This document shows positions 11,277 to 62,873 of a stretch of 64,000 bases of DNA, piece by piece. Below the pieces are notes generated by a model that was given only the letters and a program-made list of their open reading frames with translations, made no database searches and was not told the DNA's origin. How positions within the stretch are numbered: the first letter of the stretch is position 1; the number at the start of each line of letters is the position of its first letter. Source of the stretch: Candidatus Rifleibacteriota bacterium (lineage in GTDB: Bacteria > Muiribacteriota > Ozemobacteria > Ozemobacterales > Ozemobacteraceae); the NCBI GenBank assembly GCA_012517355.1, contig JAAYVD010000134.1:1-64000 (forward strand), in the 5' to 3' direction. Made by a program: the position numbers and the translations under genes.

Positions 11277-11479
11277 GAAGGTTGCCTCCGGTGAATTGTC
11301 TCCGGGCATGATAGCAGTACCCTCCCTGCCCGCTAAAGAAATTTTTCACGATCCGTGTCCGACCCTCTTGGATAGCGGCTGGACGAGGGCCTCCCGCCGC
11401 CGTTGGACGGCCCTGCGGGCATCCTGGCCGGCCGCCAGGTCGGTGTCGGCGGCTGGAACCCGGGGGCGGGCGCAGCAGG

Positions 11480-12742
11480 TCAGGGGATCAGCAGGGTCAC
11501 GGTGGCCAGGACCGGGCAGTGGTCGGAGACCCGGGGGTCGCGCAGCACCACCGACCGGATTTCCGCGTTCCCGCCTGGGGCGACCAGAGCGATGACGTGG
11601 TCGATCTTCCGCAGGGGATTGCCGTTGGCGGTCCCGGAGAGCAGGTCCTGTTCCTGGTGGAAGCGGCCCTCGTTCAGGTCCACCACGTCGCTCGCGGAAA
11701 GGTTCAGGTCGCCGCCCAGGATGAGAGGCCGGGGGCGACCCCGGCAGGCTTCGAGCAGGCCGGCGAACTGCTGCCGGGTGATGGCCCCCCGCTCGGCCTC
11801 GCCGGAAGCGGCGTAGAGGTGGGTATCGACGACCTCGACCGGCCCCGCGGGGCTGGGCAGGCGCACGCCCAGGCACCCCTTCCCCGCCACCAGCTCGACG
11901 AGGTTGTGGCGGCGGGTACGGTCGAACACGGCCCGCCAGGTGTCGAGCGGGGCTTCCCGCGAGAGGATGACCAGCCCGGTTTCGTTGTACAGGCCGAGCG
12001 GTCCGGTGACGACGTGGTAGTCGGGCAGGTGCTGCCGGAGTCGCAAGATGAAGGAGGGCAACCAGACCTCCTGCAGGAGAGCCACGTCGGGACGGGTTTC
12101 CCGGACCATCGCCGCGAACCGGTCCAGCCGTTCGAGATGGCGGGAGGCGGCCGGGGGCGGCAGCAGCCACAGGTTGGCGGTCATCACGGTCAGGGTGCAG
12201 GGGCCGCTTCCGGGCAGCGCTGTGACAGCGGCGGAAAGGCCGGTCGCCCCCCCCGGACCAGGCGAAGCGCCCGCTTCGTGCCGCCATTCAGGGCGGCCAG
12301 GGGGCCCTTCCGACAGCGGGTAGGCCGGAAGGGGCTGAGGGGGGGCGGCTTCCCAGACGGAGGCGGAAGCCGGGTCCGACAGGTGGCCGGGGAGGCCCGG
12401 CACGGCCTCACGCAGCGGCGTCACCCAGGCGCGCAGCCCGGCGGGCAGGGGGAGGCGGAAGGGAATGAAGCCCCTGGGGGACCGGCGGATGGGGGAAGGG
12501 ACGCCATGCGCCAGCCCCTGCCGGATCTCGGCCAGGCGGAAAAGCGGGAAGACCGTCCAGAAATCGTCGACCTCACCGGAAGGGGAAAGGCCGGCACCAT
12601 CTTCCGCCCGGCCACTGGAGATGGCGGGATGGAGGGCGGCCGAACCACCATCGGCGGGAAGAGGCTGACCGGCCGCCAGGCCTGCGGTCACCAGCCACAG
12701 GAAAGCGAGTATCAGAGGCAGGCGGAGCTGGATTCGGGACAT
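11480..12742 (-). CDS. Exported endonuclease/exonuclease/phosphatase (EEP) family protein
   Basis: 420 residues. Signal peptide at about 1-25 (LPLILAFLWLVTAGLAAGQ), then some 150 residues without a recognised domain. The C-terminal 250 residues carry the EEP metal-dependent hydrolase motifs in order: TVMTANLWLL, VALLQEVWL, VDTHLYAASG, LILGGDLNL, KIDHVIAL and VSDHCPVLATV. The conserved N, E, D, D-N and D-H residues of the DNase I/sphingomyelinase fold are all present, so the enzyme should be active. The substrate could be nucleic acid or a phosphodiester in lipid; because it is exported, either extracellular DNA or phospholipid is possible. It stands alone on the minus strand, about 200 bases upstream of the SH3b/3D gene. 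Confidence 0.88.
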   Translation of the reverse strand: MSRIQLRLPLILAFLWLVTAGLAAGQPLPADGGSAALHPAISSGRAEDGAGLSPSGEVDDFWTVFPLFRLAEIRQGLAHGVPSPIRRSPRGFIPFRLPLPAGLRAWVTPLREAVPGLPGHLSDPASASVWEAAPPQPLPAYPLSEGPPGRPEWRHEAGASPGPGGATGLSAAVTALPGSGPCTLTVMTANLWLLPPPAASRHLERLDRFAAMVRETRPDVALLQEVWLPSFILRLRQHLPDYHVVTGPLGLYNETGLVILSREAPLDTWRAVFDRTRRHNLVELVAGKGCLGVRLPSPAGPVEVVDTHLYAASGEAERGAITRQQFAGLLEACRGRPRPLILGGDLNLSASDVVDLNEGRFHQEQDLLSGTANGNPLRKIDHVIALVAPGGNAEIRSVVLRDPRVSDHCPVLATVTLLIP

Positions 12743-13231
12743 GGAGCCTCCGGGAAATGGATGCCCGGTTCACCGGCGACCTCCGGCGAACCCGGTCGCC
12801 GCCACCATACCATGGGAGGGAGAGGGCCACAAATCCCGGTCACGGCCCGTGCCATTGGGAAACAACAGGCCGGACCTCGATTCCGATGAGGTCGCGGGCG
12901 CGCCGCGGCGGAAATTGGCGAACCTCCGGGCGCCTCTTGGCGGGATGCCGACCGGTTGTCCCGCGCCGCCTTCCGTGGGGACAGCAGAGCTGTCCGCCTT
13001 CGGGTCGGTCGGGTGTCCCGAGATCGAGCGGTCGGCAAGAGCGAAAGCGGGGGTATGAGGACGCGGTGGCTTCGGCAGCAAAGGGAAGGGACGGTGTGGA
13101 TGGGCGCGGCAACCGGTGGCCGCTTCTGCATTTCCACTGGGGAGAAACCAGCCCTGGAAATGTAACTTCCGCTCCCAGGATGGTAAGATGGTTCAGGAGA
13201 ATCTGATACTGGGGACACTGGAGGAACGACG
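12743..13231. other. Intergenic region between divergent genes, with a hairpin
   Basis: About 490 bases between the divergently transcribed EEP gene and the NlpC/P60-like gene. Several shadow frames are open but show no protein-like features. A perfect 7-bp hairpin, GGACAGC-AGA-GCTGTCC, lies at 12979-12995. Just before the plus-strand gene, TAAGAT near 13179-13184 could be a -10 box, and GGAGG at about 13219 is its ribosome binding site. Nothing else is recognised. Confidence 0.4.
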
Positions 13232-15192: not shown

Positions 15193-15514
15193 CCGGCAAA
15201 CCGGGACCGGCGCGGCGGCCGGGCATCCCGGGCGAGGAATCTGGCGAGGAGCCCAGCGGGGAACCAAGCGGGGAACCAGGCGGGGAACCGCCGGTGCCAG
15301 GAAAGGGCACGTTCGCCGGGTGGGGGTGGTAGGCTTCCCCTCCTTAGGCCAGGAAGGGGCGGTTCCCCTGGGGATGGGGGGAACCGGCGGCTTCACGCCG
15401 ACCCCGGTGCAGGCAGGGGGAAGTTTCCGGCATCGTCCCGGTGGGGCAGGGGAAACCCTGCCCCGTCCGCTTTCCTGGGGATGCCGCAGGGGATGCCGAC
15501 TTGGCCCTTGCGCC

Positions 15515-20813: not shown

Positions 20814-21956
20814 ATGTCCTTCCGTCGTCAAGTCCTGGCCCTGGTCATGGTCTGGCTGCTGACCATCCTCACCGTCGTTTCAGGAGAAGACCCCGTGAAG
20901 CTGAACCCCCTGTCCCCGGAAGAAGCCCACGTCATCCTGGAGAAAGGGACCGAACGGCCCTTTTCCGGGCGGTTCTCCACGCACCGCGAGCCCGGCACCT
21001 ACCTCTGCCGCCAATGCGACGCCCCCCTCTACCGGTCGGCGGACAAGTTCGACGCCGGCTGCGGTTGGCCGAGTTTCGACGACGAGATCCCGGGCGCGGT
21101 CAAGCGCCAGACCGACGCCGACGGCCGACGCACCGAGATCCTGTGCGCCCGCTGCGGCGGGCACCTCGGCCACGTCTTCCTGGGCGAGGGGCTGACCCCG
21201 AAGAACACCCGGCACTGCGTGAACTCGCTGTCCCTCGGATTCCAGGCGGCCGCCGACCCCGCTCCCCGAACGGTCGCCGGGCCCGCGCCCCAGCTTGCTG
21301 CCAGCCCTGGTCCCCGGCCACCCGCCAACAACGCTCCCCAAACACCCGCCAGCCCCCCGGCCAGTCCAAGCGTTCAGGACACCGCCCGGACCGCCCCGGC
21401 CGGGTCAACGGCCAGCGCGGCGGTGCCCCCCGCCACCCCGGCATCCGGCACCGCCGGGACCGCCGCCCTTCCCGCCACCGAGCGGGCCTACTTTGCGGGA
21501 GGCTGTTTCTGGGGAGTCGAGCACCTGATGCAACAGGTCAAAGGGGTGCAGACGGTGACATCCGGCTTCATGGGAGGAACGGTGGAGAACCCCACCTACC
21601 GGCAGGTCTGCAACCACGACACCGGCCATGCCGAGGCGGTCGAGGTGGTGTTCGACCCCCGCCAGACCACCTTCGAGGAACTGGCCCGGCTGTTCTTCGA
21701 GATCCACGATCCGACCCAGGTCGATGGTCAGGGTCCGGATCTCGGTGATCAGTACCGGTCGGAGGTCTTCTTCACCAGCGAGGCCCAGAAGGCGACGGCC
21801 GAGAAGTTGATCGGCATTCTGCGCAGCAAGGGGTTGAACGTGGTGACGCGGGTGACCCCCGCCGCCACCTTCTGGAAGGCCGAGGAGTACCACCAGGACT
21901 ACTATCGCAAGAGCGGGGGCACCCCCTACTGCCACCGACGGGTGAAGAGGTTCTGA
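20814..21956 (+). CDS. msrBA: Exported methionine sulfoxide reductase, MsrB-MsrA fusion
   Basis: 380 residues. Signal peptide at about 1-24 (LALVMVWLLTILTVVSG), so it acts outside the cytoplasm. MsrB at about 30-145: zinc pairs CRQC and CARC, the core SADKFDAGCGWPSF, and catalytic Cys in NTRHCVNSLSLGF; reduces R-sulfoxides. A linker of about 75 residues rich in Ala, Pro and Thr follows. MsrA at about 220-380: catalytic Cys in YFAGGCFWGVEH, then GHAEAVEVVFDP, GDQYRSEVFF and a C-terminal YCHRRVKRF; reduces S-sulfoxides. The order B then A is the reverse of Neisseria PilB and many fusions. It would repair oxidised envelope proteins. No thioredoxin-type partner is fused or adjacent. Single gene. 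Confidence 0.94.
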   Translation: MSFRRQVLALVMVWLLTILTVVSGEDPVKLNPLSPEEAHVILEKGTERPFSGRFSTHREPGTYLCRQCDAPLYRSADKFDAGCGWPSFDDEIPGAVKRQTDADGRRTEILCARCGGHLGHVFLGEGLTPKNTRHCVNSLSLGFQAAADPAPRTVAGPAPQLAASPGPRPPANNAPQTPASPPASPSVQDTARTAPAGSTASAAVPPATPASGTAGTAALPATERAYFAGGCFWGVEHLMQQVKGVQTVTSGFMGGTVENPTYRQVCNHDTGHAEAVEVVFDPRQTTFEELARLFFEIHDPTQVDGQGPDLGDQYRSEVFFTSEAQKATAEKLIGILRSKGLNVVTRVTPAATFWKAEEYHQDYYRKSGGTPYCHRRVKRF

Positions 21957-21967
21957 GCAGCGCGCGG

Positions 21968-22017
21968 AACTGACGTTTCGCGCCGCCGCCCATGGCGGCG
22001 AAGTGGTAGGGCCGACC
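21968..22017 (-). repeat. Degenerate copy of the three-hairpin repeat
   Basis: Contains GACGTTTCGCGCCGCCGCCCATGGCGGCG followed by GGGCCGACC, the minus-strand order of the inner hairpins and the remnant of the head seen in better copies (22.9, 56.0 and 62.7 kb). Outer arms are eroded. Confidence 0.55.
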
Positions 22018-22147
22018 CTGTGGCGGTCAGCCCCGAGGCGAACCTCGACCTGACGGGCGGGGTTGCGGAGAACCGGCAGCCGCCGCCGAAAAACCGACAG
22101 TTTTCCCGGAGGAGGCGCGTTGCCCCCGGTTCCAGGCGGCTATTTCC

Positions 22148-22897: not shown

Positions 22898-22901
22898 TCC
22901 G

Positions 22902-22980
22902 ACCGACACGAGGTCGGAAGTGCCCCCTTGCCGCCACGGATGGCGGCGCGAAACGCCCGTTTCGCGCATCGCAAGGGGGC
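22902..22980 (+). repeat. Three-hairpin repeat, best copy (first of a pair)
   Basis: Head hairpin CCGAC-ACGAG-GTCGG at 22903-22917. Then an outer stem, CCCCCTTGC (22923-22931) pairing with GCAAGGGGG (22971-22979), encloses two inner hairpins: GCCGCCACGGATGGCGGC (22930-22947) and GCGCGAAACGCCCGTTTCGCGC (22946-22967). The folded form would be a cruciform. Confidence 0.9.
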
Positions 22981-22981
22981 C

Positions 22982-23061
22982 GACCGACACGATGTCGGCC
23001 ATACCCCTTTGCCGCCACGGATGGCGGCGCGAAACATCCGTTTCGCGCATCGCAAGGGGGC
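22982..23061 (+). repeat. Three-hairpin repeat, second of a tandem pair
   Basis: Same order as the copy just before it: head CCGACACGATGTCGG (22984-22998), outer arms ACCCCTTTGC and GCAAGGGGG, inner hairpins GCCGCCACGGATGGCGGC and GCGAAACATCCGTTTCGC. Differences fall mostly in loops, so the stems look conserved. Confidence 0.9.
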
Positions 23062-36107: not shown

Positions 36108-36133
36108 CCCGACCGGCACGCGTTCGGCCCCGC

Positions 36134-36210
36134 CCGACACGATGTCGGAAGTGCCCCTTTGCCGCCACGGATGGCGAGCGCCCGGCCCATTCCGCGCGAG
36201 AGCGAAGGGC
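36134..36210 (+). repeat. Three-hairpin repeat, partly degenerate single copy
   Basis: Head CCGACACGATGTCGG (36134-36148) and GCCGCCACGGATGGC are kept, with CCCCTTTGC before them. The second inner hairpin and the closing arm (GCGAAGGGC) are altered. It lies between two plus-strand genes. Confidence 0.75.
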
Positions 36211-36303
36211 CATCATCCCTGTTCCGACCAAGGATTCCCGGGGCGGCCCCGGCTTTGCCACCGCCCGCTCCCTGCCCTGAAGACCAATTCTGGAGGTGTT
36301 TCG

Positions 36304-38474: not shown

Positions 38475-40073
38475 ATGCTGACATCTGCACCGATGCCCCT
38501 CTGTCCGGTCGGCCCCTGGGCGATGGGCGGAACGGGCGGTGCGCGCCGCCCTCGGTGGCGGCCATGGGAACCTGCCGGCGCCGGGGGCGGGCAGGCAACC
38601 CGGCGCGCCCGGGACCGCCACCTGGCGATGGTCGTCCTGCTGGGCCTGGGGCTGCTGTTGCTGGCGGCCCCGGCCGTTCACGGAGAAAGCCCCGAGGGCC
38701 CGTATCTCCAGGCCTTGCGGCTGCTGGCCAAGGGCGATTTCGTGGCCGGGGTCAAGCTGTATTACAAGGTCATGATCCTGACCGAGCCCCTGTTGTCGGT
38801 GGCGGTACGCAAACATGACCTGGCCGCCGCCCGCGCCTCGTTCGCCGCACAGGTCAAGGCACAGCCCGCCGACCGGCAGACCGCCCTCCTGCTGGCCCTG
38901 ACCGACCGCCTGACCGAGGACTGGCCGGCCGCCGACGCCCAGTTGGGGGCCCTGCGGAAGACGTTCCCCGGCTCCTTCCTGCTGGCCTTCATGCACGGCG
39001 AGCTGGCTCTGAACCTCCCCGACGAGAAGCGGGCCACTGACCTGTTCGGGCTGTTGGCAGCCAACCCGAAGGCCAGGAAACTCCTGGCCCTGGCCGAAAA
39101 GGTCCTCGCCCGCCACCGCCTGACCAGGAAGGACAAGATCCAGGCGGAGGATCCGGCCGCCCGCCGGAAGGTCCTGCTGGAAAAGGCCTTCCGGCACCTC
39201 GACCTGTTGGAACGCGACCAGGCGCGCGCCGCGTTCGAGAAGATCTACGCCGGGTTCCCCGATGATCCGGTGGCCCCCACCGCCCTGATCGACCTGTTCC
39301 TCGAAACCAGTCAGCCCGCCAAGGCGGAAAAGGTCCTGGCGACCTGGCTGGCGGCCGGCCACCCGCCGCTCCTCATCCCCCTGAAGGAGGGGCGACTCCG
39401 CTATCTGCAGGGGCGGTATGCCGAGGCCATCGCGCCGCTCGAGAAGGTGCTGCGCGAAGACCCCGCCAACGAGTACGCGCGGTTTTTGCTCGCCGAGAGC
39501 TGCTTTCTGGCCGGGCGGTTCGACGCCGCCGCCCCGCATTTCCAGCAGATCTGGAACGCCGACCCGTCGAACCCCGGGATGCTGCAACGCTACGCGGCGT
39601 GTCTCGAGCAGGGCGGCAAGCCGGCCGAGGCGGCCGGCCTCTACGAGAGCGCCCTCTCCCGCACGCCCGGCGACCCGTTCCTGCTCAACGAACTGGCCGC
39701 GCTCTGCATGCGGAACCGTTGGTACTCCCGGGCCGAGATCCATTACGCCACCCTGGCCGACGCCTCGCCCGACAACCGTTTGGCGGCCGAGGAAGCCCTC
39801 GCCGCGATCCGCGAGGCGAAGAACGTCGCCGCCCTGGCCGGCTCCATCGAGGCGATCACCGCCTCCGCCACGGCGGCCGCCATCGCGGCGGCCGCGGGCA
39901 ACCCCGGGTCACCCGGTGCCCCCGGGACGTCGGGGGATCCGGCGACACCGGGCGGCGATCAACCCGCCAGCGTGGACACCCCTCCCGATTCCCCCCCGCC
40001 ACCGCCCCCCGCCGACCCCGCCGAGGCCGCCGAGGCCGAAGCCCTCCGGCGGTTGTCCCGCATGTACGAATAG
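38475..40073 (+). CDS. TPR-repeat exported or membrane-anchored protein
   Basis: 532 residues from ATG 38475, preceded by GAGGAGGT. A hydrophobic segment at about 52-72 (HLAMVVLLGLGLLLLAAPAV) follows a long polar N-terminus. Residues 80-460 are TPR-like helices: RYAEAIAPLEKVLREDPANE, ARFLLAESCFLAGRFDAAAP, MLQRYAACLEQGGKPAEAAG, FLLNELAALCMRNRWYSRAE. The C-terminal 60 residues are Ala/Pro/Gly-rich and end in a short helix. TPR arrays serve as protein-binding scaffolds. It is the second gene after the FecR-like gene, 10 bases apart, and converges on the PsiE-like gene. Confidence 0.82.
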   Translation: MLTSAPMPLCPVGPWAMGGTGGARRPRWRPWEPAGAGGGQATRRARDRHLAMVVLLGLGLLLLAAPAVHGESPEGPYLQALRLLAKGDFVAGVKLYYKVMILTEPLLSVAVRKHDLAAARASFAAQVKAQPADRQTALLLALTDRLTEDWPAADAQLGALRKTFPGSFLLAFMHGELALNLPDEKRATDLFGLLAANPKARKLLALAEKVLARHRLTRKDKIQAEDPAARRKVLLEKAFRHLDLLERDQARAAFEKIYAGFPDDPVAPTALIDLFLETSQPAKAEKVLATWLAAGHPPLLIPLKEGRLRYLQGRYAEAIAPLEKVLREDPANEYARFLLAESCFLAGRFDAAAPHFQQIWNADPSNPGMLQRYAACLEQGGKPAEAAGLYESALSRTPGDPFLLNELAALCMRNRWYSRAEIHYATLADASPDNRLAAEEALAAIREAKNVAALAGSIEAITASATAAAIAAAAGNPGSPGAPGTSGDPATPGGDQPASVDTPPDSPPPPPPADPAEAAEAEALRRLSRMYE

Positions 40074-45582: not shown

Positions 45583-45745
45583 CGACCCGTTCCTCCCGTG
45601 TCACCGGGCCCCGGCCAGACCGCTCTCCCCGACCCGAACCTTCTTTTCGGGACTCTCCGGATCCGCCCTCCCCGTCTTCCTCTTTCCGGCTTTCCATGGC
45701 TCTGGGCCTCTGTGATGCCGAGGGAAGCGGCATCTGCCGTACCAC

Positions 45746-45826
45746 CCGACACGTCGTCGGAAGGGCTTCCCCTGTGCCGCCACGGATGGCCGCGCCAAAC
45801 GCCAGTTTCTCGCTCCGCACAGGGGC
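45746..45826 (+). repeat. Three-hairpin repeat
   Basis: Head CCGACACGTCGTCGG at 45746-45760, outer arms CCCCTGTGC and GCACAGGGG, inner GCCGCCACGGATGGCCGC and a degenerate second hairpin. A partial extra unit follows (CTGCCGCCACGGACGGGGGGGCGAA, to about 45875). Paired changes in the outer arms (CTTTG to CCTGTG with CACAGG opposite) suggest that the stem is maintained. Confidence 0.8.
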
Positions 45827-46258: not shown

Positions 46259-46969
46259 TCAGGAATCCGACCGACACGAGGTCGGAAGTGAGCCGCGGGC
46301 GCCAGGACGGCGCATCCTCCGCGGACCCGCCCGGCCCCCGTCCGAGGCAGGGGGTGGAACGGCCGCCGTCGGGCGGCCTGGCAGCAGGGCCACGACGTCA
46401 CTGTACCCGCGGCCGGCGGCCAGGTCAACCGCCAGCCGACCGTCAGGATCGGGCCGGGCGGGGTCAGCGCCGCGCTCCAGCAGACACCGCACGGCCGCGA
46501 CATGTCCCTGCTGGGCCGCGAGGTGGAGGGGGGCCCAGCCGTCCTTGTCGGGCTGGTTCACGGCGGCCCCGGCGTCGAGGAACAGGGCCACCAACTCCGC
46601 GGCTCCCCGGTAGGCCGCCCAGTGCAGGGGGGTCCAGCCATCGCGTTCGACGACATGCACCGAGGCGCCGGCGGCCAGAAACAGGCGCGCCATCTCGATT
46701 TTCTGCCGGGCCGCGGCCCAATGCAGAGGGGTTACCTGGTCGGCATTCGCCTTCCCCACCTGTGCGCCCGCCGCCAACAGCCGGCGGGCGATCCCCTCAT
46801 GGGTCGTCTTGGCCACGACCAGCAGGGGCGTCAGCAGGCCGGCCGCGTCAGTCCCGTTGGGGTCGGTCCCGGCGGCCAGCAGGTCGGCCACCTCCTGCTC
46901 GCGGCCGGCGGTCACCGCGGCCAGCAGTCGGTCGATGGGGGTGCCAGAGGTCGGGGTCGGGGTGGTCAT
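46259..46969 (-). CDS. Ankyrin-repeat protein
   Basis: 236 residues from ATG 46969, with AAGGAG at proper spacing and the start overlapping the MoeA-like stop by 4 bases. Five ankyrin units: DRLLAAVTAGREQEVADLLA, TPLLVVAKTTHEGIARRLLA, TPLHWAAARQKIEMARLFLA, TPLHWAAYRGAAELVALFLD, APLHLAAQQGHVAAVRCLLE. Ankyrin repeats bind proteins; there is no signal peptide, so it is cytoplasmic. The last 40 residues are not ankyrin-like, and the final ten (SLPTSCRSDS) are encoded by the head of a three-hairpin repeat, which also sits beside the stop. Confidence 0.87.
   Translation of the reverse strand: MTTPTPTSGTPIDRLLAAVTAGREQEVADLLAAGTDPNGTDAAGLLTPLLVVAKTTHEGIARRLLAAGAQVGKANADQVTPLHWAAARQKIEMARLFLAAGASVHVVERDGWTPLHWAAYRGAAELVALFLDAGAAVNQPDKDGWAPLHLAAQQGHVAAVRCLLERGADPARPDPDGRLAVDLAAGRGYSDVVALLPGRPTAAVPPPASDGGRAGPRRMRRPGARGSLPTSCRSDS
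46271..46285 (+). repeat. Head of a three-hairpin repeat inside the ankyrin gene
   Basis: CCGACACGAGGTCGG followed by GAAGTGAGCCGCGGGCGCC. Only the head is well kept; the remainder is degenerate and part of the ankyrin coding frame on the minus strand. Confidence 0.65.
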
Positions 46970-51063: not shown

Positions 51064-52665
51064 TCAGCATGCCTCCTTCTCCTCGTGACCGGCCTCCCGC
51101 CATCCGGCCGACACCTGTTCGGAAGCTTCCCCGTGCCGGTTCTGAGGACGGCTCGGAACACCCTTCCCGCGCGAGGCCAGGGGGTTGACCGCCACGAGTT
51201 CGGAAGGGCCCTCCCGTCGCCACGAGGAACCGAGCGAAACATCCACTCCGCCCGACGCCAGGGGATGGACCCGTTCACCGTCCTGCCCTTCGGTAACGCA
51301 ACCCTCCGGCACCGCGGTCGCCCCGTCGACGGCATGTTCTCCCGTCCCGGCCGGATCAGCGGGGGGTTCCGTCCAGGTGGACCCGTCGGCGGTGGCAGCG
51401 GGATCAAGATGCAACCGGGCCGGCCGGAAGGAGGCGAAGGCCTCCGGCTCGTGGGTGGCGACCAGGGCCAGCCCGCCCTCCCGCAGGAAGGCCCCCAGCA
51501 GGGCGAGCAGGCGGGCGCGGTTGCGGCGGTCGAGACCGGACAGGGGTTCGTCGAGCAACAGGCAGGGGGTGCGGCGCACAAGGCCTCCGATCAGGGAGAT
51601 CCGCTTCTTCTGCCCGTAGCTGAGCCGCAGGGGGGAACGGGGCAGGCAGTCGGCCACCCCGAAAAACGCAGCCAGGGCGCGGGCGTCGGCCTCGCTGCCC
51701 CGAGCGCCGGTCATGATCTCCCCCAGTGAATCGGCGGCAAAGACCTCCTGGTCGGGGTTCTGCGGGACGTAGCCCACTTCCCCGGGCACCTCCACCCGTC
51801 CGGCCGGAAAGGCGGACAACCCCGCCAGGTGCTGCAACAGCCTGGTCTTGCCTGCCCCGTTGGGGCCGGTGACCACCACCAGCCCGCCCGGCCGGGCGGA
51901 GAACCCCACCCCCGCGCCGCCCTCCCAGCCAGGCCAGGTCAGGCCCGCCGCCACCAGGTCCCGGGACGGGGCGTCCACCCCGAAGGCCGGAACGGGCCCG
52001 ACAGGCTCCTCGCCGACGGGATGCAGGTCGATGGTCCGTTCCCCGGGCAGGTGAGCGGTGTCGGTCAGCAGGACGGCCGTGCCGGTGGCGGCGATCCGGT
52101 CGATGGTCGCCCGCATACCGGCCTGCCGGCGGGCATCGAGGCCGACGAAGGGCTCGTCGAGCAGCAGCACGGACGCGGGATACTGCCACAACCCCGCCAG
52201 GCCGAGCAGGCGCGCCTGGCCGAACGACAACAGGCTGGTCTCGCGAGGCGCCAGGTCGGCCAGCCCGAAGTCGCGCAGAGTGCCGAGGGCCACCGCGACA
52301 GCCCGTTCGGGGGTCTCCTCACGGTATTCCGGCCCCAGCAACAGCTCGTCGATGACCGTGGCACAGGCGATCTGCAGGAGCGGGTCCTGGGCGGAACGGC
52401 GGGCCTCGGCGGTGGGGAAGCCCCCAAGGTCGGCCGCGAGAACGGCGCGGGAACCGGGCGCCGGCAGCTGGCCTCCCAGCACGGCCAGGAGCGTGCTTTT
52501 CCCGCATCCGGACGGTCCGCATACCTGGTGGACCCGGCCCGGTTCGACGGGGAAGTCCAGATCGCGCAGCACCGGTTCCTCTTCCGGGGCGAACCGGAAC
52601 TCCCTGATGCGGACCCGCCAGGGGCCGCCGGGGGATCCGGCGCCGGCAGGGCAGTCCACGTTCAT
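51064..52665 (-). CDS. ECF-type transporter ATPase, two nucleotide-binding domains in one chain
   Basis: 533 residues from ATG 52665. Domain 1 (about 15-235): Walker A GPSGCGKST, signature LLSFGQAR, Walker B VLLLDEPFVGLD, but the switch histidine is replaced (LLTDTAHL, Thr at the His position). Domain 2 (about 245-435): Walker A GPNGAGKTR, YVPQNPDQEVFA (Q-loop region typical of CbiO/EcfA), signature LSYGQKKR, Walker B CLLLDEPLSGLD, and an intact switch His in VATHEPEA. This is a fused EcfA1-EcfA2 pair powering vitamin or metal uptake. The last 100 residues are not ATPase-like; part is encoded by two three-hairpin repeats. It is separated by 151 bases from the methyltransferase gene upstream. 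Confidence 0.88.
   Translation of the reverse strand: MNVDCPAGAGSPGGPWRVRIREFRFAPEEEPVLRDLDFPVEPGRVHQVCGPSGCGKSTLLAVLGGQLPAPGSRAVLAADLGGFPTAEARRSAQDPLLQIACATVIDELLLGPEYREETPERAVAVALGTLRDFGLADLAPRETSLLSFGQARLLGLAGLWQYPASVLLLDEPFVGLDARRQAGMRATIDRIAATGTAVLLTDTAHLPGERTIDLHPVGEEPVGPVPAFGVDAPSRDLVAAGLTWPGWEGGAGVGFSARPGGLVVVTGPNGAGKTRLLQHLAGLSAFPAGRVEVPGEVGYVPQNPDQEVFAADSLGEIMTGARGSEADARALAAFFGVADCLPRSPLRLSYGQKKRISLIGGLVRRTPCLLLDEPLSGLDRRNRARLLALLGAFLREGGLALVATHEPEAFASFRPARLHLDPAATADGSTWTEPPADPAGTGEHAVDGATAVPEGCVTEGQDGERVHPLASGGVDVSLGSSWRREGPSELVAVNPLASRGKGVPSRPQNRHGEASEQVSAGWREAGHEEKEAC
51108..51184 (+). repeat. Three-hairpin repeat, first of a degenerate pair inside the ECF ATPase gene
   Basis: Head CCGACACCTGTTCGG, then CTTCCCCGTGCCGG, a changed inner part and closing GCGAGGCCAGGGGG. 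It encodes, on the minus strand, part of the C-terminal tail of the ATPase. Confidence 0.6.
51187..51264 (+). repeat. Three-hairpin repeat, second of a degenerate pair
   Basis: Head-like GACCGCCACGAGTTCGGAAG, CCCTCCCGTCGCCACGAGG, GAGCGAAACATCCACTC and closing GCCAGGGG. Also part of the ATPase coding frame. Confidence 0.55.
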
Positions 52666-55993: not shown

Positions 55994-56077
55994 GCCCCTT
56001 TGCGATGCGCGAAACGGGCGTTTCGCGCCGCCATCCTTGGCGGCAAAGAGGGGCCCTTCCGACGTCGTGTCGGTCGG
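55994..56077 (-). repeat. Three-hairpin repeat, first of a pair
   Basis: Full-length in minus orientation: CCCCTTTGC arm, GCGCGAAACGGGCGTTTCGCGC, GCCGCCATCCTTGGCGGC, GCAAAGAGGGG arm and head CCGACGTCGTGTCGG. All three hairpins are intact. Confidence 0.88.
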
Positions 56078-56158
56078 CCCGTCGGCGCTGCGCCACAATC
56101 ACCCTTGGCGCCGCCATCCGTGGCCGCAAAGGGGCCCAGGCGACATCGCGTCGGTCGG
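56078..56158 (-). repeat. Three-hairpin repeat, second of a pair
   Basis: Minus orientation: degenerate second hairpin, GCCGCCATCCGTGGCCGC, GCAAAGGGG arm and head CGACATCGCGTCGG. It lies between the divergent ECF operon and the plus-strand gene at 56441, about 300 bases before that gene. Confidence 0.75.
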
Positions 56159-62141: not shown

Positions 62142-62641
62142 GGCGCGGGGGGCCGGCCCTGGACGATGCCCACCGCCTGGTAGGTCAACGTCTGGTCGTG
62201 CCGCGGGGTCACCCAGTCGATCCGCAGGTCGGCGCGGAACATCGGTTCCCGCGCCGATCCCCACCCTGCCAGGCGTCGCAGGGCCAGGCGTCGGGTGTAT
62301 CCCGTCGGGGCCGGTCCCACGCCCAGGCTCGACAGGGCCAGGCCGCCGGGCAGCTCGGAATCGACGGTCGGGGCCAGTTCGCACAGGACGCCCGGCGCGG
62401 CGTTCTTCAGGCCGGCCAGCAGGGAACTGGACAGGCTGGCGGCCAGCGACAGCTCGCGCGCCGCCCGGACCGCCCGCCGGCTCCCGGAAAAGACCGACCA
62501 GACCGGCCCCAGCACGGCCAGCAGGATGACGATGGCGACCAGGATCTCGACCAGCGAAAACCCGCCGGCCACCCCCGGCCCGAGGTCGGAAGCGGCCCTC
62601 GGCCGCCAGAGATGACGGCGCGCCCTCTCCCTGGCGGGCAC
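62138..62641 (-). CDS. Prepilin-type protein (minor pseudopilin, GspI/PilV-like)
   Basis: 167 residues if GTG 62641 is used; the frame is open further into repeat DNA with no better start. The leader ends VAGG and is followed by FSLVEILVAIVILLAVLGPV, an exact prepilin peptidase site with Phe +1 and Glu +5. The mature part is short and mixed (AARELSLAASLSSSLLAGLK, RADLRIDWVTPRHDQTLTYQ). The size and place at the head of the operon fit GspI or PilV. The 27-residue leader is longer than usual. A repeat pair begins 10 bases upstream of the start, so the promoter must lie in or beyond it. Confidence 0.82.
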   Translation of the reverse strand: MPARERARRHLWRPRAASDLGPGVAGGFSLVEILVAIVILLAVLGPVWSVFSGSRRAVRAARELSLAASLSSSLLAGLKNAAPGVLCELAPTVDSELPGGLALSSLGVGPAPTGYTRRLALRRLAGWGSAREPMFRADLRIDWVTPRHDQTLTYQAVGIVQGRPPAP

Positions 62642-62650
62642 CGTAGAGGG

Positions 62651-62735
62651 ACCGACCGGGACGAAGTTGGAAGGGCTTCCCCATTGCCGCCACGGAAGGG
62701 GGAGCAAAGTCCCCGTTTCACGCACCGCAAGAGGG
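62651..62735 (+). repeat. Three-hairpin repeat, first of a pair
   Basis: Head GACCGGGACGAAGTTGG (degenerate), GGCTTCCCCATTGCCGCCACGG, GTCCCCGTTTCACGC and closing CCGCAAGAGGG. Stems are weaker than in the 22.9-kb copies. Confidence 0.65.
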
Positions 62736-62736
62736 C

Positions 62737-62822
62737 TGACCGACGCGACGTCAAAAGGGCTTCCCCCTGACCGCCACGGAGCGCGGCGCGAAACGCGGGT
62801 TTCGCGCATCATGGAGAGAGGG
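62737..62822 (+). repeat. Three-hairpin repeat, second of a pair
   Basis: Head GACCGACGCGACGTC, CTTCCCCCTGACCGCCACGG, intact second hairpin GGCGCGAAACGCGGGTTTCGCGC and closing GAGAGAGGGCC. It lies between the prepilin operon and the gene at 62874. Confidence 0.75.
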
Positions 62823-62873
62823 CCGCCACGGAAGCTGGGATCAGCCCTTCGGCCGCGGATCGCGATGCCCAGG

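Follow-up and report, generated by a model that had tools for sequence, protein, structure and literature searches.

REP-like repeats are common, but the mechanism of their movement is still open and their insertion is rarely caught. The 64,000 nucleotides of Candidatus Rifleibacteriota DNA analysed here (hereafter the window) raise this question at 22.9 kb, where two copies of a palindromic unit lie head-to-tail. What is this unit, how did it spread, and how do such arrays arise? From the sequence comparisons set out below, the element is mobile, REP-like and found across genera.

Structure of the repeat unit

The long form of the element is an 81-nt unit. From 5' to 3', it consists of a foot CCGA, a 5-bp head hairpin, a linker AAGTG and a three-way junction, closed by a 9-bp stem, from which two hairpins branch. 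Its consensus, CCGACCGACACGATGTCGGAAGTGCCCCTTTGCCGCCACGGATGGCGGCGCGAAACGCCCGTTTCGCGCATCGCAAAGGGG (one leading C included), was drawn from 57 copies of the window's genome, G000; this alignment (A2) holds 57 of the 60 full-length copies extracted, the three omitted (L010:1583, L010:1421 and L020:1586) being truncated or diverged. A second alignment, A6, comprises all 61 matches of the short-form model R2 in four genomes (G000, G002, G004 and G010). The foot CCGA is present in most rows of both alignments.

Both units of the pair at 22.9 kb are of the long form and lie on the plus strand, unit 1 at 22899..22979 (109.8 bits with R1, the covariance model of the long form) and unit 2, with a variant linker CCATA, at 22980..23060 (103.8 bits). 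In unit 1, the unpaired foot CCGA (22899..22902), which is kept in A6 while the adjoining stem changes, stands 5' of the head hairpin CCGAC-ACGAG-GTCGG (22903..22917), a helix in which A6 has both sides changed in 4 of 5 pairs. The linker AAGTG (22918..22922, defined from A2 and A6) leads to the outer stem, whose 5' strand (22923..22931, from the fold and the pair counts) pairs with its 3' strand (22971..22979, from the fold). This stem encloses inner hairpin 1, CGCCA-CGGA-TGGCG (22932..22945), and inner hairpin 2, GCGCGAAAC-GCCC-GTTTCGCGC (22946..22967), both placed by the fold. An antisense cross-match at 22933-23001 was discarded as a palindrome effect.

A second form, of 60 nt, has a single apical hairpin, lacks inner hairpin 2 and differs in its stem letters. 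It occurs in the window at 46267-46326, at other sites of G000 and in other genera, and it predominates in G002, a genome of the same genus as G000. A 56-nt form, in which the outer stem and hairpin 1 are fused, was also seen (L115).

As single-stranded DNA, the two units at 22.9 kb fold with z = -5.4 and -5.8, and six of the seven units tested fold better than shuffles; for the inserted unit at locus L212, shuffles give folds about as good (z -0.36). The first-pass annotation had described the shape as cruciform and tRNA-like. The tRNA likeness is not supported: tRNA gene calling returned no call at any copy, and the fold is that of a head hairpin followed by a three-way junction. Open reading frames are no more frequent in the units than in dinucleotide shuffles of the same composition (six open frames, P 0.22 for the long form and 0.36 for the short form). 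Openness in six frames was thus rejected as evidence that selection favours in-frame insertion. Among 70 long units, 67 have a length divisible by three, but this mostly reflects one inherited length and was likewise rejected as evidence.

Copies in the window

We searched the window with R1, taking matches at E <= 0.01, and in parallel with an nhmmer profile. About a dozen copies had been named beforehand: nhmmer recovered 12 out of 12 and R1 11 out of 12, the copy at 51187 being found by nhmmer only. These copies are real, but three of them (21.97, 55.99 and 56.08 kb) are on the minus strand, and the one at 46.27 kb is the 60-nt form with one apical hairpin. Five more copies were found, namely unit one of a triple (62572) and four degenerate copies on the minus strand, at 12249..12327 (R1 47.6 bits), 12932..13011 (28.6 bits, weak), 15363..15444 (29.6 bits, weak) and 38512..38587 (38.9 bits). 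The head pattern, with at most one mismatch, matches 26 times in the window, versus 10.0 times expected from shuffles.

The four head-to-tail pairs first described are all correct, but the one at 62.65/62.74 kb belongs to a triple on the plus strand, with unit one at 62572..62652 (R1 40.3 bits), unit two, of 84 nt, at 62653..62736 (52.2 bits) and unit three at 62737..62823 (45.7 bits). Besides the pair at 22.9 kb, a plus-strand pair consists of 51105..51185 (R1 36.4 bits) and 51187..51264 (nhmmer 29.2 bits, under the R1 cut), and a minus-strand pair of an upstream unit at 56077..56157 (R1 52.6 bits) and a downstream unit at 55994..56076 (98.9 bits). Other copies lie at 21949..22029 (minus strand, R1 47.1 bits), at 36131..36211 (plus strand, 58.2 bits; 3' half diverged, 23 nt past a predicted stop codon) and at 45743..45826 (plus strand, 77.2 bits; an 84-nt copy with the linker AAGGGCTT). 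The 60-nt copy at 46267..46326 (plus strand, R2 72.0 bits) forms the end of a predicted ankyrin-repeat gene, whose C-terminal codons it provides.

Two further observations concern the gene calls of the window. A predicted ABC-transporter ORF (51064-52665, minus strand) ends in 50 or so codons that are the degenerate tandem pair at 51105 read antisense. At 21388-21485 (minus strand), ARAGORN places a tRNA-like gene whose anticodon has four bases inside a coding region, a call that is probably spurious.

Copy number and distribution among genomes

G000 comprises 7,114,650 bases in 184 contigs. R1 has at least 150 matches in it, all at E <= 3.3e-12, and the head pattern with at most one mismatch is found 317 times (reversed control, 0). 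Within 464 kb, made of the window and stretches of three large contigs chosen as known copy carriers, we counted 56 units in 43 arrays (31 single units, 11 pairs and 1 triple; reversed control, 0). Extrapolation from the 41 units in the 400 kb outside the window, on contigs thus chosen, gives about 730 units per genome, and the window, with 15 units by the same count, is richer than average. The genome-wide count, which the first-pass annotation had proposed as a check, is therefore in the hundreds and is not limited to the few copies of the window.

With at most 150 candidates scored per genome, R2 matched in 5 of 24 genomes of the family: at least 106 times in G000, 40 in G002, 9 in G004, 5 in G010 and 6 in G016. 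No R2 match and no intact copy was found in G001, a 97% complete genome of the same genus. R1 had no match in eleven genomes from other families of the phylum, and pattern scans of viral and genome contigs gave 0 matches. The R2 matches of G016 are weak (34.8 bits) and lie inside a larger imperfect palindrome. This genome contains a repeat of about 350 bp (L142, L147, L152, L157, L162 and L166) whose terminal inverted repeats, CCGAAAAATAGCG...CGCTATTTTTCGG, are long and imperfect; at its apex it is similar to the 60-nt form, and several copies are at contig ends.

Covariation of the stems

Across species, the stems covary very strongly. Base pairing is kept in 92.4% of the cells of A6 and both sides have changed in 17 of 19 pairs, with 104 both-side-changed cells versus 27 in shuffles and a covariation score of 0.303 versus 0.097 (reached by 0 of 500 shuffles; slid controls <= 0.083); A6 was fitted to the model, with several long-form units forced on it, so these absolute figures lean towards structure, while the nearly gapless head stem is little affected. 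This head stem alternates between CCGAC, CCCCC, CCCGC and CCAGC, each with the matching partner, while the foot CCGA, the loop A-N-G-A and GAAGTG stay mostly constant in G000, G002, G004 and G010. Within G000 alone the covariation is weak, as 4 of 28 pairs are changed on both sides versus a shuffled mean of 3.4 (14 such cells versus 5.8). The earlier impression that the stems are selected is thus borne out by the comparison between species.

G-T is not clearly in excess over A-C, with 46 versus 31 in A6 and 35 versus 38 in A2. This argues for a structure that source copies require as DNA when they transpose, with decay of the copies afterwards, and against a conserved RNA at every site.

Position of the copies relative to genes

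Although gene calls cover 87% of the sequence, 31 of the 43 arrays lie mainly outside predicted genes (binomial p 1e-18). These 31 arrays are distributed as 17, 8 and 6 in tandem, convergent and divergent gaps, close to what gap length predicts (31.3, 12.3 and 16.4 kb, respectively). The orientation of neighbouring genes is about even both upstream and downstream, and there is no strand bias relative to genes. Gene avoidance with even orientation fits a purging of copies from genes, not a terminator or leader role.

These data bear on the explanation that the copies are functional host elements (terminator, mRNA stabiliser or nucleoid site), each under selection. The location between genes agrees with it, and the long form folds strongly as RNA on either strand. 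However, the copies prefer neither gene 3' ends nor the sense strand, G-U is not in excess over A-C, Rfam at gathering score has 0 matches in the window, and the copies decay, to the point that the sister species G001 has no intact one. We consider this explanation quite improbable, and the precise empty sites described below refute it as an account of how the element spread; a secondary use of some copies as host elements is possible.

Some copies lie within genes. In G000, a three-unit array is inserted in frame between the two domains (Pfam FAD_binding_2 and Succ_DH_flav_C) of a gene that we take to be nadB-like, and its orthologues in G001 and G002 (77-78% identity) are devoid of the array. 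A predicted 2246-aa kinase/AAA/GAF/histidine-kinase protein (L098:1112-7852) contains three copies, all antisense, with a stop-free frame.

Empty sites

We compared G002 with its sister species G001, whose DNA is about 82-87% identical at the first two loci compared, by measuring the spacing between conserved landmarks on both sides of each site. Three sites occupied in G002 and empty in G001 differ by exactly one unit, of 81 nt (L118/L202) or 60 nt (L206/L227 and L212/L230). The insertion is therefore precise and, as was found at 3 out of 3 resolved sites, occurs without target duplication. At L206, the cut can only be placed within the CCG of GATCCG|...CCGGTC, and L212 permits the same place if one substitution is granted. 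L206 and L212 were the 2 clean cases among 11 further comparisons; the nine others (L205, L207, L209, L211, L216, L218, L219, L220 and L222) aligned poorly across the unit and were not counted either way.

The pair L124/L200 was not counted as an empty site, as parts of the unit persist in G001. At L200 (counterpart of L124:18499), CCGACC and the 3' stem strand are kept and the middle is missing; this is probably the relic of a unit, in a genome where no copy is intact. No nested insertion within a unit was found in the sequence examined.

A classical MITE, with a DDE transposase as its mover, would share the small size, the high copy number and the intergenic location of the element. The unit ends, however, carry no terminal inverted repeats, and the three empty sites without target duplication contradict such a transposition, to which we give almost no credence.

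Boundaries of the units and formation of arrays

The 5' ends of isolated units (n = 55) show a weak G-A-Y followed by a nearly invariant CCGACC. Their 3' ends (n = 51) show CC-N-(T 30, A 10)-CC, with random letters beyond. At tandem junctions, which read CCGACC, an A occupies the diagnostic position in 41 of 42 cases. In the two cases where the empty site is best resolved, the empty allele already contains the letters found 3' of the unit; CCN(T/A)CC can thus be read as the target, and the CCGACC of the unit itself as its mimic. The CCGACC of the tandem junctions suggests, at the sequence level, that units insert beside existing units. By this mimicry, new units could land directly upstream of old ones, which would explain the exact head-to-tail arrays, mixed forms included.

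Arrays combine different forms and subtypes with exact junctions. Neighbouring units are slightly more alike than others (mean identity 0.933 versus 0.899; 13 versus 1583 pairs). Along contigs, strand shows no coherence, 67 of 138 array pairs being on the same strand. Replication slippage, template switching or recombination between copies might have built the arrays, and perhaps dispersed the units, with no dedicated enzyme. The greater likeness of adjacent units suggests that local duplication contributes to arrays, but the mixed forms and subtypes with exact junctions argue against this as the general process, and unit-length insertion into unrelated genes and spacers would be left unexplained; we find it very improbable. 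Judging from the array sequences, insertion beside a copy and local duplication likely both contribute.

The boundaries also bear on a site-specific recombinase (tyrosine, serine or IS110-type) exchanging at a CC core common to unit and target, with a one-unit circle inserting an exact unit without duplication. Such an exchange would account for the insertion of an exact unit with core letters on both sides, for a target conserved on both flanks and for arrays that are exactly head-to-tail. On the other side, a double-stranded circle of 60 bp is sterically unlikely, and covarying hairpins would serve no purpose in such an exchange, except on a single-stranded substrate as with integron attC sites, whose motifs were not noticed in the unit. 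A recombinase therefore seems unlikely to us.

Search for a partner enzyme

As first stated, no transposase is encoded in the window: the only Y1_Tnp match of G000 sits on contig C109 (4387-4713), and the nearest copies of the element are about 6.6 kb away, at 11353. Among the element-bearing genomes, G000 and G002 have one Y1_Tnp match each and G004, G010 and G016 have none; G001 has neither the element nor a Y1_Tnp match. The first-pass annotation had suggested looking for a RAYT-like gene flanked by copies, but the repeats on either side of the only RAYT-like gene are of another kind. The Y1_Tnp proteins of G000 and G002 contain NHVH...WQ...YVE(R/L)NP (YVERNP/YVELNP), which is not the class 3 motif (see below), and the named record closest to that of G000 is from a Candidatus Ozemobacteraceae MAG (65%), a likeness by which the window probably belongs to Ozemobacteraceae (Riflebacteria). 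Both genes are flanked by GGGGACATGATAC-type repeats, unlike the element. A RAYT was rejected as the likely mover, given these flanking repeats of its own, whose G000 motifs are absent from the 464 kb checked. Loci L031 (G000:C109) and L236 (G002:C123) each contain one such RAYT-like Y1 gene with GTTCCGGGGACATGATAC-type inverted repeats alongside. In this they resemble the tyrosine transposases with flanking TIRs described in PMC3733652.

We also looked for an autonomous relative with the same ends. None was found among 18 exact heads, chosen by eye as missing from the full matches listed: 17 run into a second hairpin, mostly degenerate, and one (L196) is truncated. No Y1 motif was found in these 18 head loci. 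A DNA pattern for the class 3 motif, used without a positive control and on fragmented assemblies, matched in 0 of 29 genomes. Assemblies break at these repeats, with copies at contig ends.

A proposed single-strand route

We lean towards reading the element as REP-like and non-autonomous, with a Y1/HUH-type enzyme that moves it in the form of single-stranded DNA. The unit, with two unlike hairpins in fixed order (foot CCGA and short head hairpin, then linker AAGTG and long irregular hairpin), would be the minimal left-end and right-end substrate of a single-strand transposase of the Y1/HUH class (IS200/IS605/TnpA-REP-type) acting in trans. It would fold as single-stranded DNA and be cut at the CC(G) present at each of its boundaries; the excised unit would be a single-stranded circle of 60-81 nt, joined into a GAY-CC-N-(T/A)-CC target without target duplication. 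Since the unit starts with CCGACC, a settled copy would be a good target for the next one, giving precise head-to-tail arrays.

The empty sites, the covariation, the single-stranded DNA folds, the boundary profile, the lack of nesting and of a G-T excess, the avoidance of genes and the likeness of CCGA to CnGA all support this proposal. Four points count against it: no partner enzyme was found in the searches described above, strand is not coherent along contigs, the L212 unit folds no better than shuffles, and the target letters are 3', versus 5' in IS200/IS605. Perhaps the opposite strand is the active one, but the CCGA foot would then be on the wrong strand.

More tentatively, the element might be a self-sufficient minimal transposable unit, in which two unlike hairpins fused in 60-81 nt of DNA would move as a single-stranded circle and carry their own CCGACC landing site, leading to ordered head-to-tail arrays and some 700 copies, with an enzyme that would be outside the known RAYT/IS200 groups or gone from the genome. 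This version is possible but rather doubtful.

Comparison with known systems

No paper on this repeat was found in the literature searched, including with the terms Riflebacteria and palindromic. The likeness to REP/BIME elements suggested at first reading holds for the dispersal, the hundreds of copies, the covarying stems and, with the three empty sites, for mobility, but the element is not a canonical REP. It shares with GTAG REPs, BIMEs and REPINs (PMC3116915, PMC8266576) the hundreds of copies, the intergenic location, the imperfect palindromes, a tetranucleotide 5' of the hairpin and a probable single-stranded DNA substrate, but unlike them its unit consists of two unlike hairpins in direct order. 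The foot of GTAG REPs is GTAG or GTGG, whereas it is CCGA here, and GTAG REPs/REPINs replicate as inverted head-to-head doublets, whereas the element forms head-to-tail arrays and was inserted as one direct unit at three empty sites. CGTC-tagged REPs, including RPE-4 and RPE-6, are likewise high-copy palindromes without a dedicated transposase, some of them in genes and translated, but each of them is one hairpin of 8-9 bp that bears a CGTC tag and a CCA tail, and they occur mainly as inverted dimers, in contrast to the two hairpins, CCGA foot and head-to-tail order found here (Di Nocera et al. 2013, PMC3733652). Here, CGTC is confined to the variable 3' flank, which the empty allele also contains at the two best-resolved sites.

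With the IS200/IS605 family (IS608, ISDra2) and its derivatives, the element shares two hairpins, a short unpaired guide-like foot, the absence of target duplication and conserved target letters. It differs in having no gene between the hairpins, no longer same-ended relative among the inspected heads and no strand coherence. IS200/IS605 elements favour the lagging strand, for which the element has no bias (67/138, as above), and their targets are 5' of the insertion, whereas the best-conserved target letters of the element are 3' on the strand shown. Rickettsia palindromic elements are palindromic repeats that also occur in frame within a housekeeping gene; the element resembles them in its in-frame housekeeping-gene copy and differs in phylum, sequence and size.

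Class 3 TnpA-Y1 genes, with the motifs NHVH, W[TA] and YV[VI]xEQ, adjoin atypical secondary structures with a 5' foot CnGA, present in about 600 copies in Solibacter; the phyla named for these structures in the available text do not include Riflebacteria (Quentin et al. 2018, PMC6006769). The CCGA foot fits CnGA and the copy number is comparable, a likeness judged from the published description (PMC6006769). By analogy, the element may work like a class 3 TnpA-Y1 system, of which it is at most a candidate member. The sister species pair yields exact empty sites, the unit length and the target letters, and in related genera the stems are rewired while the letters of foot and loop stay fixed. 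How a non-GTAG system, perhaps of a class-3-like kind, recognises its substrate is thus directly testable.
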